Shown here one piece after another: positions 9,138 through 20,155 of a DNA stretch of 20,487 bases. This DNA is from a virus: the IMG/VR virus record IMGVR_UViG_3300025168_018229, positions 1 to 20,487 of that record; one strand, written 5' to 3'. Below the pieces are notes generated by a model. It worked only from the letters and a program-made list of their open reading frames with translations. It made no database searches and had not been told where the DNA came from. A program made the translations under genes and the position numbers. Each line of letters begins with the position of its first letter. The stretch's first letter is position 1.

Positions 9138-9823
9138 TAAATTTAGACTCAAATATAGTACAAGAAGGAAAAGACAAATTAATCACACAATATTATCGAT
9201 CAGAAAATATTGAAAAGGTTTTAGAGATAGGCCTTGATTTACTTCAAGATGCTGAAACAATAGCGCATAGCCTTTATGAAAATAGAACTATTGAGGATGC
9301 GATAGGTGTGCAATTAGATGGTGTCGGTGCTATTGTTGGACAGCCTAGAAATGGTTTGACTGATGAAGTATACCGTTTACGAATTAAAGCAAAAATAGCT
9401 GAAAATAATTCAGAAGGTACTCGAGAAGAAATTATAAATATTGCTAAATTATTAACTAATGCAGAGCGTGTAATTGTTACAGAAAGACAAGCTGATTTTG
9501 ATGTAACTTTTTATAATATTACAAACCCGATTGCATCATGGGATGAAGTTAAACAAGCTATTACAAATGCAACATGTTCTGGAATAGGTGTAACTGTTGA
9601 AGAGTCTCAATATAGAATATTTAGATTCTTAGATCGTGATGGGAATATACCTTCTGATGGTGGTGGGTTTAGAAATTTATATAATTTAAGAAGACCTACT
9701 GATGTATTTCTTTTTGATACAAGTGGTTCCGGTTTTGACGCAGGTGAATTAGCTGAGATAGCAGTACATGACACTGGGAATGTACTAAATCCTGATGCAG
9801 GACACTTAGTAACAATAAAATAA
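9134..9823 (+). CDS. DUF2612 baseplate/tail protein
   Basis: This protein belongs to the DUF2612 group, which follows gpJ in many myoviruses and probably takes the place of gpI, joining wedge and fibre. Residues 1-100 are mostly helical, with L-L-Q-D-A-E-T-I-A and the characteristic A-I-G-V-Q-L-D-G-V-G-A-I-V-G-Q-P-R-N-G-L, then E-V-Y-R-L-R-I-K-A-K-I-A-E-N-N-S-E-G-T. The middle part is a small alpha-beta fold. The last about 75 residues (R-I-F-R-F-L-D-R-D-G-N-I-P-S-D-G-G-G to the end) are Gly/Asp-rich, look like an added C-terminal region, and could be where the fibre binds. It is the last gene before a candidate promoter at 9827-9855. Confidence 0.82.
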   Translation: MINLDSNIVQEGKDKLITQYYRSENIEKVLEIGLDLLQDAETIAHSLYENRTIEDAIGVQLDGVGAIVGQPRNGLTDEVYRLRIKAKIAENNSEGTREEIINIAKLLTNAERVIVTERQADFDVTFYNITNPIASWDEVKQAITNATCSGIGVTVEESQYRIFRFLDRDGNIPSDGGGFRNLYNLRRPTDVFLFDTSGSGFDAGELAEIAVHDTGNVLNPDAGHLVTIK

Positions 9824-9826
9824 TGT

Positions 9827-9855
9827 TTGAATTTAATGTTTTAATTTAATAAAAT
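9827..9855 (+). promoter_or_regulatory. Sigma70-like promoter upstream of the S74 tail fibre gene
   Basis: TTGAAT (9827-9832) and TAAAAT (9850-9855) are separated by exactly 17 bases. The site lies in the only real gap (52 bp) between the baseplate and fibre genes. An AGGAG ribosome site follows at 9862-9866. The whole gap is AT-rich, so a chance match is possible. Confidence 0.5.
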
Positions 9856-17138: not shown

Positions 17139-18665
17139 ATGGCAATTACAAAAATTCGCCAAGAACAAATGAAACAATCGAGGGCATATACGGATACTAT
17201 TGGGGCTGGTGAAGCTACATTAGTGACAGCCTCAACCGATTTAGAGTTCGATGCAAACGCAATAAGATCACAAATTAAAAGAGCGTATGGGGGATCTAAT
17301 TGGTATGATGATATCGCAACAGTCAACGGAAAAAAGCGAGCAATAAGTGGCTTGAATACAGGTCTAGATACAATAGAAACTAAAAAGTTCTTTGCTTTTA
17401 GACAGGTGATTACCGATATTACAGTGGCAACAGCGGAAAACTTTGTTGGGCTCAGTGTTGCAGGTAATGCCGCACCGACTCAAACGGCGGGTGTAACTTC
17501 GAATGGGGCAATTGTTGCAGTCCTTGCCGCCGCTGAATTTGGAGCTAATAGGCTTACCGAAGTTGTTGGGGCTAACGCACTGTCACCAAAAAATCTTGTA
17601 TTTATTCGTGATGCAGGAACTAAAGATGCGATTCGATCAGGTGAGTATCAAGTATATGGACTTCTACAGGCTGAAAACGGTGTCGTTCAGGGGGATACTT
17701 TTAATGATACTACTAAACGGGTCCAAATATCCTTTGTTATCAATTCAGGTACTGACACGCTAGTTGCGTGCCCAGTTGCGGATATTCAGGGAAAAACTAT
17801 TGAGTATGTGTATTCTGATAGGGTTAATTTTGAAGATCTTCCAGAAGATTCATCATTTCCATTTGTTACGTTTGGTGATATTGCTCTCAGTGGTGATAAT
17901 ACGCTATCGCAGGTAATGCAGAATCAGGGTGCAACTCCAGTTGTCTCAACTTCTAACACCTTTATAAAAATTAGTGATGGTAACGAATTTACATTTCAAA
18001 ACTCGGACGCGTCAGTCGACATATTTAGAGTAAGACATGATACCTTAGCAGGAGCGCAAATTAATAGAGTGAATTGCGGTGCATATTTAACGGTTGAGTC
18101 TGGCGGTGCTTTTCAAGAGGGTATTGAAGTTGATTCTAACGATCAGTCTATTCAAATTGGTGTTACTGCTGGACAAATTGACTCGGCTGGAAGTTTATCT
18201 TTGCTTACGACAGGTGCGACTTCTGATGTATCAATTTTTTCAAGTGGGGGTATTCTTTTTAATGATAAACACATTACAGCGTCAACATATACTGGAAATT
18301 TATCTTTAGCTACTACTACTCAAGAAATAACTGATTTTGTTAATAATTACGGGTCAGTATCTTTGATATCAGCTATCAACACAGCATCGAATACTGGTAA
18401 TAGTATTATTTTAGAAATTCTTTTGACTAGTGATGTTGCAAATACAACGAGTTTCGATCCTAATACGCAAACAAATATCAATAGTGCGGCGATACCAGAT
18501 TGGACAACCAATACAATTTCTACAGCCGTTATTTATATCAACGGAATCAGAAAGATTTATGGATCAGCATATGATTTTCAAGTAGGAACAACTGCAGCAG
18601 ATGGGCAAATTTCTTTTAGTAGTAATTTGTATTCAGGTGACGTAATAACAATTGAATACACATAA
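17139..18665 (+). CDS. Tail fibre/appendage structural protein with GC-rich patch
   Basis: This 508-residue protein is a virion appendage. The N-terminal part (M-A-I-T-K-I-R-Q-E-Q-M, then D-A-N-A-I-R-S-Q-I-K-R-A-Y-G-G-S-N-W-Y-D-D) is the attachment region common in tail-fibre and head-fibre proteins. The middle is beta-rich with Ala, Gly and Thr, and the C-terminal 45 residues (A-V-I-Y-I-N-G-I-R-K-I-Y-G-S-A-Y-D-F, Q-I-S-F-S-S-N, G-D-V-I-T-I-E-Y) match a motif found at fibre ends. The DNA at 17461-17580 has 65 G/C in 120 bases by hand count, while 18301-18360 has 17 in 60, so the gene looks mosaic. No S74 domain. It has its own promoter. Confidence 0.75.
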   Translation: MAITKIRQEQMKQSRAYTDTIGAGEATLVTASTDLEFDANAIRSQIKRAYGGSNWYDDIATVNGKKRAISGLNTGLDTIETKKFFAFRQVITDITVATAENFVGLSVAGNAAPTQTAGVTSNGAIVAVLAAAEFGANRLTEVVGANALSPKNLVFIRDAGTKDAIRSGEYQVYGLLQAENGVVQGDTFNDTTKRVQISFVINSGTDTLVACPVADIQGKTIEYVYSDRVNFEDLPEDSSFPFVTFGDIALSGDNTLSQVMQNQGATPVVSTSNTFIKISDGNEFTFQNSDASVDIFRVRHDTLAGAQINRVNCGAYLTVESGGAFQEGIEVDSNDQSIQIGVTAGQIDSAGSLSLLTTGATSDVSIFSSGGILFNDKHITASTYTGNLSLATTTQEITDFVNNYGSVSLISAINTASNTGNSIILEILLTSDVANTTSFDPNTQTNINSAAIPDWTTNTISTAVIYINGIRKIYGSAYDFQVGTTAADGQISFSSNLYSGDVITIEYT

Positions 18666-18729: not shown

Positions 18730-19173
18730 ATGATAAACGAAAAAGAACAACTATTATTATCTGTTAAATTAGATTTTGAAAAACGAATAAAAAACACAGA
18801 GCAAAATATTTTAATTACTACAAACTGTGTTTCACATTTAGAATCAATTATTAATCATTTGTCACAAGCATTTAAAAATACTTACAATGATAAACAGAAC
18901 AAAGAACGAAAAATCACTGATAGTGAGTTAAATTATATTCACGAAGTTTTTAATACCACACTTAATTTTCTTGTTTCTGATTTTGAACACAAAAAAATAG
19001 ATATACATAGGGCTGAAGGAAAAAGATTGCAGGCCATAGAAGCAATATCCTTACTTGAAAGCCAAATTTCAACATTAAAACATGCTGAAGAATACCAAAA
19101 AAAATCACAAGAAATTGACAAAAAAACAAGAAAAGCAAAACAGCCTAAAAAAAATAAAACTATAAAAAAATGA
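18730..19173 (+). CDS. Coiled-coil protein of the fibre operon
   Basis: This 147-residue protein is almost wholly helical, with heptad-like L/I spacing in L-L-L-S-V-K-L-D-F-E-K-R-I, L-E-S-I-I-N-H-L-S-Q-A-F and L-Q-A-I-E-A-I-S-L-L-E-S-Q-I-S-T-L-K. It ends in a very Lys-rich tail (residues 125-147). No family recognised. It lies between a fibre and a repeat-bearing virion protein, is preceded by a hairpin and no ribosome site, and overlaps the next gene by 4 bases (ATGA). A fibre chaperone, a fibre-linking trimer or a small scaffold are plausible, none proven. Confidence 0.75.
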   Translation: MINEKEQLLLSVKLDFEKRIKNTEQNILITTNCVSHLESIINHLSQAFKNTYNDKQNKERKITDSELNYIHEVFNTTLNFLVSDFEHKKIDIHRAEGKRLQAIEAISLLESQISTLKHAEEYQKKSQEIDKKTRKAKQPKKNKTIKK

Positions 19174-19769
19174 CAACTATCGTAGAAAATATTTCTAACC
19201 AAATACCAAATTTAGAAAGCATCTATACAACTACTAATATTTTAACTGATGGGGTGTTCATTACGTTAAATGGAATTGCTTTAAATCAAGATGCTGGTGA
19301 CTTTGAAATACGTACCCAAAAATCTTTCTTTTTAAATGCAGTTTTAGAAGCTGGTGAAGATGAGTTGATCGTTTTTTTTACAAGGAATATATATGATGTT
19401 TCTAGTCAAATTGACGGTAGTAGACGAATATTTAATGCTGTAGAAGGTGATATATCAAATTTGCCTTTTTTAGCAATTTATAACGGTCAATTTATAAATA
19501 CTACAGAAATATCTGATCAATCATTTAGTGTTGGTTTTATTCCTATACCTGGTGATTCCTTAAGATATATTCGTAGCTTACATGTGGTTTCAAATGATAA
19601 ATCTTTTTTAGTTACGGGTGAAGTAAAAAAAAACGATGTATTGGGAACTGTATCTAAAAACAATTTGACTGGTACTGTAAATTTAAATGAAATTAATGGT
19701 ACTATCGGTTATAATACAATTACAGGCACAGTAGAAAAGCAAACTTTAGTAGGTGAAATAGAAAAATGA
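19170..19769 (+). CDS. Virion-associated protein with C-terminal 9-residue repeats
   Basis: The first about 145 residues of this 199-residue protein are beta-rich (G-V-F-I-T-L-N-G-I-A-L, D-E-L-I-V-F-F-T-R-N-I-Y-D-V). They include a V-x-L-N-G-x-x-L motif often found in phage appendage proteins. The last 50 residues are five 9-residue repeats and a partial sixth with the pattern G-[T/E]-[V/I]-x-x-[N/Q]-x-[L/I/V]-x. The repeats suggest a beta-solenoid or fibre stalk. No catalytic motif. It is coupled at both ends (4-base overlaps). Baseplate, fibre connector or receptor-binding parts are all possible. Confidence 0.72.
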   Translation: MTTIVENISNQIPNLESIYTTTNILTDGVFITLNGIALNQDAGDFEIRTQKSFFLNAVLEAGEDELIVFFTRNIYDVSSQIDGSRRIFNAVEGDISNLPFLAIYNGQFINTTEISDQSFSVGFIPIPGDSLRYIRSLHVVSNDKSFLVTGEVKKNDVLGTVSKNNLTGTVNLNEINGTIGYNTITGTVEKQTLVGEIEK

Positions 19770-20155
19770 GTTGCAACAATATAAATTATTTAGAATACTA
19801 TCCAGGTGATAATAACGAAATTACAGTTGATATTGCATATTCTGATGGAACCTCTATCGATAATTTGCAAAATGACTTGGCAAACGTTATTTTTGAGGCA
19901 CAAAATAGTACTGGTAATGCTGTATTAACACTACAAATGACAGATGATCCAGCACGTATCGCTTATTCAAGACATCAAGGCAAGGACCGTTTAACAATTT
20001 CGCCACTTGTAGCAGATATGGCTATTGCTGTAGGTGAATACGATATATATTTAAAAATTATTTTAGAAGACCCTGATAGAAATCATCACATAAAAATGTT
20101 TAAAGATGGTGTTCAATTAACTAAATTAAAAATTTTAGTTGGTGGTATAGCTTAA
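19766..20155 (+). CDS. Beta-rich baseplate/fibre accessory protein (BppU-like N-terminal pattern)
   Basis: This 129-residue protein opens with Y-L-E-Y-Y-P-G-D-N-N-E-I-T-V-D-I-A-Y-S-D-G-T-S-I-D-N-L. This layout (Y-x-G-D, strand, D-G-x-x-I-D-L, then a V-I-F-E-A-Q strand) is typical of BppU-like and other phage baseplate upper-protein N-terminal domains. Two more strand pairs follow (A-V-L-T-L-Q-M-T-D, Y-D-I-Y-L-K-I-I-L-E-D) and a short C-terminal strand. It is likely an immunoglobulin-like structural domain that anchors appendages. It is coupled to the preceding gene. Its stop overlaps the stop of the minus-strand VRR-NUC gene by 2 bases, so transcription ends there from both sides. Confidence 0.65.
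   Translation: MSCNNINYLEYYPGDNNEITVDIAYSDGTSIDNLQNDLANVIFEAQNSTGNAVLTLQMTDDPARIAYSRHQGKDRLTISPLVADMAIAVGEYDIYLKIILEDPDRNHHIKMFKDGVQLTKLKILVGGIA

Follow-up and report, generated by a model that had tools for sequence, protein, structure and literature searches.

The spike protein gp5 of phage T4 carries at its C-terminus a short repeat of a hydrophobic residue, any residue and a glycine; its VxGxxxxx units form a triple-stranded beta-helix, which is locked by a small separate protein, gp5.4, that binds the last strand (as described in excerpts of PMC4576200). The BppU_N-type domain (PF10651) forms the N-terminus of fibre polypeptides: it anchors BppU, for instance of phage TP901-1, onto Dit, and a domain of this type is predicted at the start of the neck passage proteins, which are borne on the collar (excerpts of PMC9692632).

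Here, we describe an array of 9-residue units at the C-terminus of a 199-residue protein, encoded by a contractile-tailed phage. The window, i.e., the whole stretch of DNA analysed, comprises a single IMG/VR virus record with a length of 20487 bases. The array resembles the gp5 repeat in having a short hydrophobic-x-G unit at the end of the polypeptide; however, the unit is nine residues long instead of eight (18 of 42 positions are identical at a lag of nine, 2 of 43 at a lag of eight), the partner is presumed to be Ig-like and not a PAAR protein, and a trimer is a prediction here. The likeness to BppU_N lies in the neighbouring gene, which reaches the PF10651 cut-off in two further loci, L225 (4e-10) and L026 (7.5e-6), although here it is a small gene of its own, located downstream of the fibre gene. 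RTX nonapeptides have a glycine-containing period of nine residues too, but their signature, GGxGxDxUx, is absent from all six units of the window, as is an Asp ladder. By sequence, the complete repeat protein has no match in the PDB, while the array alone has two (E 0.75 and E 6.7), the latter, to hemolysin/adenylate cyclase, being the only one of RTX type. The Toastrack proteins (DUF4097, PF13349) of L082 and L083, caught by the same DNA pattern as the phage arrays described below, also have a 9-residue period with G-x-[VI]; these are cellular proteins, with a long domain and an N-terminal region of their own. Solved Toastrack examples are named in excerpts of PMC11237479; searching the PDB with the L082 protein retrieved no Toastrack entry, and the window protein does not match PF13349 at E ≤ 1. 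A collagen-like Gly-X-Y repeat was rejected, as there is one glycine per nine residues (with an extra one in unit 4), not one in every third position. In a limited literature search, we found no description of a repeat tail paired with an adaptor gene.

The repeat gene and its cassette

The window encodes a DUF3383 sheath, baseplate J and baseplate hub proteins and a fibre with an S74 chaperone. The features relevant to the repeat gene are:

513 to 2096, + strand: DUF3383 tail sheath, sharing 45% identity with that of the L264 phage
17139 to 18665, + strand: fibre-like protein of 508 residues heading the cassette; its residues 3-87 match the N-terminus of L365:585-1064 with 48% identity
18730 to 19173, + strand: upstream gene, 147 residues, by eye apparently helical or coiled-coil with a basic tail
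19170 to 19769, + strand: repeat protein, 199 residues; N-terminal domains at residues 1-147, array at residues 148-199
19611 to 19766, + strand: nonapeptide array read from the sequence, five full units and one partial unit, down to the stop
19637 as the last base of unit 1, from 19611: VTGEVKKND
19638 to 19664: unit 2, VLGTVSKNN
19665 to 19691: unit 3, LTGTVNLNE
19692 to 19718: unit 4, INGTIGYNT
19719 to 19745: unit 5, ITGTVEKQT
19746 to 19766: partial terminal unit, LVGEIEK
19767 to 19769: stop codon of the repeat gene
19766 to 20155, + strand: partner gene, 129 residues, presumed Ig-like, with weak similarity to BppU_N-type adaptors

Unit coordinates follow the register of the original prediction. 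The genes at 18730-19173, 19170-19769 and 19766-20155 each overlap the next by four bases (ATGA). Neither the repeat protein nor its partner has a Pfam or PHROG match at E ≤ 1. Residues 1-147 look like two tandem domains of about 70 residues and of one type when both halves are aligned by eye with both halves of the homologous L264 protein; the duplicated pattern, encoded in 19170-19610, reads xxQxDGxxxxF ... NG ... GDxL.

Two more contigs come from the same phage: L004, with an identical hub, and L002, which overlaps the 3' end of the window and extends it. This continuation encodes a repeat protein at L002:1432-2400, which we take to be pentapeptide-like, and at L002:2691-3521 a 276-residue protein of leucine-rich repeats (CSGLTEITIPESVTTIG), presumably BspA-like. 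Elsewhere in the window, a 13-base repeat of 2.3 copies (9821-9850) is located at the end of, or just behind, a 229-residue gene that follows baseplate J and precedes the fibre gene.

The array occupies the last 52 residues of the protein and has the consensus [LIV]-x-G-[TE]-[VI]-x-x-[NQ]-x, polar residues dominating its variable positions. Both the glycine and the V/I are present in six of six units. It had been proposed from the letters that five and a half strictly periodic units were kept as protein while their DNA diverged, and both statements were borne out. Identity of the array with itself is 18/42 at lag 9 and 13/33 at lag 18, with at most five identities at every other lag from 1 to 24. 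Shuffling the array region 20,000 times gave at most 16 identities at the best of lags 2-20, and shuffling the complete protein 2,000 times gave at most 14, so that 18 was never reached. At the DNA level, lag-27 identity is 70/126 (56%), distributed over the three codon positions as 22/42, 28/42 and 20/42, so that conservation is highest at position 2 and lowest at position 3; three different codons encode the six glycines, and Tandem Repeats Finder at score 30 does not list the array. Since the lag-9 periodicity of the protein is strong and the DNA of the units has diverged, the protein pattern has outlasted the DNA repeat.

A homologous cassette in a related phage

Back-translated peptides of the window protein found no close relatives, and a tblastn search with the protein against 50,697 phage records gave no matches at E ≤ 1. 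As Pfam, PHROG and the phage records offered no relative, viral contigs were scanned with a degenerate DNA pattern of the unit. One homolog was found, encoded at L264:2970-3560, 30% identical over its full length (200 columns, E 6e-28) and likewise without a Pfam match. It carries the array, as five full units plus a partial one, so that the absence of the repeat from relatives, named in the original prediction as evidence against it, was not observed. Variation of repeat number had been suggested as a check: between the two homologs the number is nearly equal (5.6 units in the window, 5.4 in L264), while it ranges from 2.4 to 6.8 among the other arrays described below.

The gene next to the repeat gene is also conserved, with 31% identity between the two phages (E 1e-19). 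The L264 phage is a contractile-tailed relative, as the sheath identity given above shows, and a gene in the L264 record has an N-terminus 48% identical to that of the 508-residue window protein. Taken together, the matching sheath, 508-residue protein N-terminus, repeat gene and next gene mean that a cassette of at least three genes was inherited by two related phages. Upstream within the homologous cassette of the L264 phage lies L365:585-1064; its product and that of window:17139-18665 have an N-terminus of about 87 residues in common, and the remainder is without a match. By sequence comparison, the fibre-like protein that opens the cassette thus appears as a conserved anchor with its distal part replaced.

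Within an array, units agree on average in 3.7 of nine residues (window) or 3.2 of nine (L264), compared with 2.0 of nine between units at the same position in the two phages. A unit-by-unit positional orthology is not significant, 10 of 120 permutations being as good. Units are therefore more alike within arrays than between phages; thus the motif has been kept, with its units homogenised or expanded in each lineage.

The same tail on other phage proteins

Scans of viral contigs with the degenerate pattern gave 55, 36, 43 and at least 119 stretches. In at least 12 further contig families, otherwise different proteins end in an array of the 9-residue unit:

L026: protein of 57 residues (3.7 units)
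L026: the next protein, 291 residues, with a short terminal array (about 1.5 units)
L060: protein of 401 residues
L061: protein of 323 residues, cut
L064: protein of 55 residues
L068: protein of 70 residues
L225: protein of 1027 residues, cut
L269: protein of 106 residues
L283: protein of 48 residues
L293: protein of 158 residues, irregular array
L311/L348: protein of 98 residues, cut
L312/L272: protein of 27 residues (2.4 units)
L052: protein of 296 residues, cut

L311 and L348 are 99.8% identical, and L312 and L272 100% identical, over the stretch compared, so each pair was counted once. The arrays span 2.4 to 6.8 units, and most stop inside a partial unit. In an alignment of 13 arrays, from which the irregular one of L293 was excluded, the glycine is present in 58/59 units, V/I two residues further on in 51/59 and L/I/V/F at the third key position in 48/49; the arrays had been picked for the pattern, so these counts are descriptive. 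The repeat-tailed protein of L060 has a weak match to a minor-tail PHROG (E 0.0028); no PHROG match better than E 0.05 was obtained for the small repeat proteins encoded in L026, L064 and L068. The smallest example, at L312:3629-3712 and identical in L272, is a 27-residue ORF (MSNLEGTIETIELYGVIDTQEIIGYIE) between a holin-like and a BppU_N-like gene; if expressed, it would perhaps be among the smallest virion proteins.

In L202 (718-1509), L214 and L223, larger proteins carry similar 9-residue arrays at their N-terminus or close to it, and a Pro-rich stretch comes next. A different 9-residue unit (FSGxVxxNT/S; ISGxI in L079) forms long arrays inside phage proteins of L051, L055, L071 and L079; these apparently constitute a separate kind of beta-helix-like repeat and were set aside. 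Collagen-like, low-complexity and antisense frames among the pattern matches were judged unrelated by reading, as was a chance terminal array in L300/L320, on a protein we take to be YopX-like. A scan of genome_contigs gave at least 120 matches, many of them Toastrack-like or low-complexity frames by eye (two were tested against Pfam). In the phage records, tblastn with the L060 partner, L202 and L293 queries retrieved no records; the L026 partner found one record, the L225 partner three and the L264 repeat protein one (E 0.7). In the two records inspected, Phass-1 (L200) and CF418P1 (L253), no neighbour has a repeat tail.

The gene downstream of the array

A gene of 100-136 residues follows on the same strand in the window and in L264, L026, L061, L064, L068, L225, L269, L293, L311, L312 and L052 (in L026, this is the gene behind the second repeat protein; for L269, the 121 residues are as read in L367). 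In L060, a 124-residue gene is the second one on, with one gene intervening, and in L283 (230-563) a BppU_N-like frame behind the 48-residue repeat protein is broken by a frame change, which may be real or a sequencing error. The array gene overlaps the next gene in five families, i.e., by four bases (ATGA) in the window, L026, L225 and L269 and by 13 bases in L293; five others (L064, L068, L311, L312 and L052) have gaps of 7 to 14 bases. The gap is one base in L061 and 115 bases in L264. A portal or terminase gene follows the pair at once in L026 and L052 and within three genes in L283 and L060; in the L264 record, terminase and portal are located about 4 kb downstream of the cassette.

We searched 11,422 ORFs with a seed profile of seven BppU_N-like proteins, none of which came from the repeat scans. 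Its best non-seed matches were from L312/L272, L311/L348, L225, L014 and L026, and, except for that of L014, each of them comes immediately after a gene with a repeat tail (of about 1.5 units in L026). With a profile free of pair members, the next genes of L312/L272 (4e-13), L026 (4e-11), L311/L348 (1e-10), L225 (4e-10) and L064 (4e-7) matched; those of L052, L293 and L264 matched only when pair members were included in the profile, the L264 partner having no match to the pair-free profile at E ≤ 0.01. The window partner has no PF10651 match at E ≤ 10, let alone one above the gathering score, and aligned weakly with the BppU_N-like set in hhalign (probability 60%, 44 columns). From this match and from its homology to the L264 partner, it is presumed to be BppU_N/Ig-like. 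For the next small genes of L060, L061, L068 and L269, profile tests for BppU_N or Ig likeness failed, and they are therefore not counted as BppU_N-like; for several partners, the Ig reading is a presumption from size and place.

The pairing is enriched at terminal arrays. Among the scan matches listed, a BppU_N-like gene by the broader, pair-free profile comes next in 6/33 terminal arrays with at least 150 bases behind them, compared with 0/144 arrays that do not reach the stop (Fisher p 2.8e-5). Merging duplicates leaves 4/31 terminal versus 0/144 internal arrays (p 8e-4, the internal set not being deduplicated). The definition of "terminal" was tightened once; the earlier, looser one gave 6/60 versus 0/117 (p 1.3e-3). 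L026, L264 and loci with an unproven partner count as misses in this test. Of the terminal arrays among the matches listed, 27/33 have no pair-free profile match next, and many of these look like low-complexity or simple-sequence frames or antisense frames.

Seen from the other side, 37 BppU_N-like genes, known pairs included, have a two-unit array at most 360 bases upstream in eight cases and none in 29, the latter comprising, among others, all eight Bacteroidota-phylum loci and an Achromobacter phage. The adaptor is thus used more widely, the repeat tail being one of its partners. The eight loci come from searching phrog_1084 in 296 genomes from the phylum to which a Fulvivirga genome belongs. 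Seven of these genomes were positive, and three frames upstream of each locus held no two-unit array. PF10651 was found in 12/291 genomes of one class and in 0/398 of one phylum, and the 13 places were rejected, being in frames of 267-767 residues and not of the stand-alone type.

The pairing with a presumed Ig-like partner could also mean that each unit inserts a beta-strand into one such partner, the number of units setting how many are recruited and the array being a scaffold rather than a helix. The variation from 2.4 to 6.8 units would fit, as would genes that encode little beyond the array (27 residues in L312, 55 in L064, 57 in L026). However, donor-strand systems usually provide one strand per subunit, no missing strand has been demonstrated in the partner, and the near-equal unit number in the homologous pair is compatible with strand donation but does not demand it. 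We consider this quite improbable.

Structure prediction

A single-sequence AF2 model of the window protein contains some strands, without confidence (pLDDT 29.6). With a 14-row alignment, overall confidence is still low, and residues 161-199 have the best values of the model (block-mean pLDDT 66-77), so the array is not scored as plainly disordered, the outcome that had been named as speaking against a structured repeat; DSSP assigns no strand within the array of this model. Foldseek returned no match at E ≤ 0.001. Tail fibre proteins, those of T7 type among them, turn up repeatedly in the weak BFVD matches, where TM-scores normalised by query length stay below 0.3.

The lack of modelled strands, together with the polar residues at the variable positions, would suit a flexible or extended linker that arose by slippage and has no specific structure. 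This is the least probable of the readings considered: the glycine and two hydrophobic positions are kept although the DNA has diverged, also in a homolog of 30% identity, the array has the highest pLDDT within the model, and the arrays end at the C-terminus, so there is nothing further to link.

The original prediction held that so short a period suits a beta-solenoid stalk or a fibre. The pattern is kept at the protein level, also in the L264 homolog, and recurs in otherwise different phage proteins, and the neighbours fit a virion fibre module: the upstream 508-residue protein, whose N-terminus is common to the L264 cassette, and the presumed Ig-like gene downstream. Beta-structure of the array is not seen in the alignment-based AF2 model. 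A monomeric solenoid would have two units per turn and about 2.75 turns, extending the N-terminal domains as a stalk with no special tie to the downstream protein, and the unit does resemble the 9-residue G-x-[VI] ladder of Toastrack. Single-chain solenoids are usually modelled well by AF2, however, and arrays of 2.4 units (L312, 27 residues) or 3.7 units (L026, 57 residues) would seem too short to fold alone. The solenoid would also leave the pairing with a BppU_N-like gene unexplained, and we regard it as rather unlikely.

Proposed function

In our preferred reading, to which we give a probability of about one half, the array serves a surface protein of the virion (fibre or adhesin) as its C-terminal assembly tail and works with a separately encoded adaptor. 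The short period would also suit an assembly or docking peptide, and the gene pairing favours such a peptide over a plain stalk. We infer that each 9-residue unit would form one short beta-strand, with the [LIV]...[VI] pair pointing inwards and the obligatory glycine making the turn. The units of several chains, probably three, would be wound or stacked to form a short beta-helical plug, and the small Ig-like or BppU_N-like adaptor encoded immediately downstream may receive or cap its end. The adaptor may then hold the fibre on the virion, perhaps in the neck or collar region. An oligomeric plug is favoured because the tail is at the C-terminus, the adaptor-like gene that often follows is near head or packaging genes, BppU_N domains have the role described above and gp5 offers a precedent.

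More tentatively, the pair may constitute a mobile two-gene virion module of tailed phages, not named so far, in which nearly every kind of fibre or adhesin domain could receive a C-terminal tail of [LIV]xGx[VI]xxxx units, matched by a separate BppU_N/Ig-like socket; the tail could also exist by itself, as a mini-protein of 27-57 residues. If so, unrelated phages could swap surface fibres behind a common plug. If plug and socket are real, fibre or adhesin genes of uncultured phages that resemble no known ones would be recognisable from their last 30 residues and the gene that follows, and the tail would provide a natural assembly tag of very small size, down to a 27-residue ORF in the smallest example.
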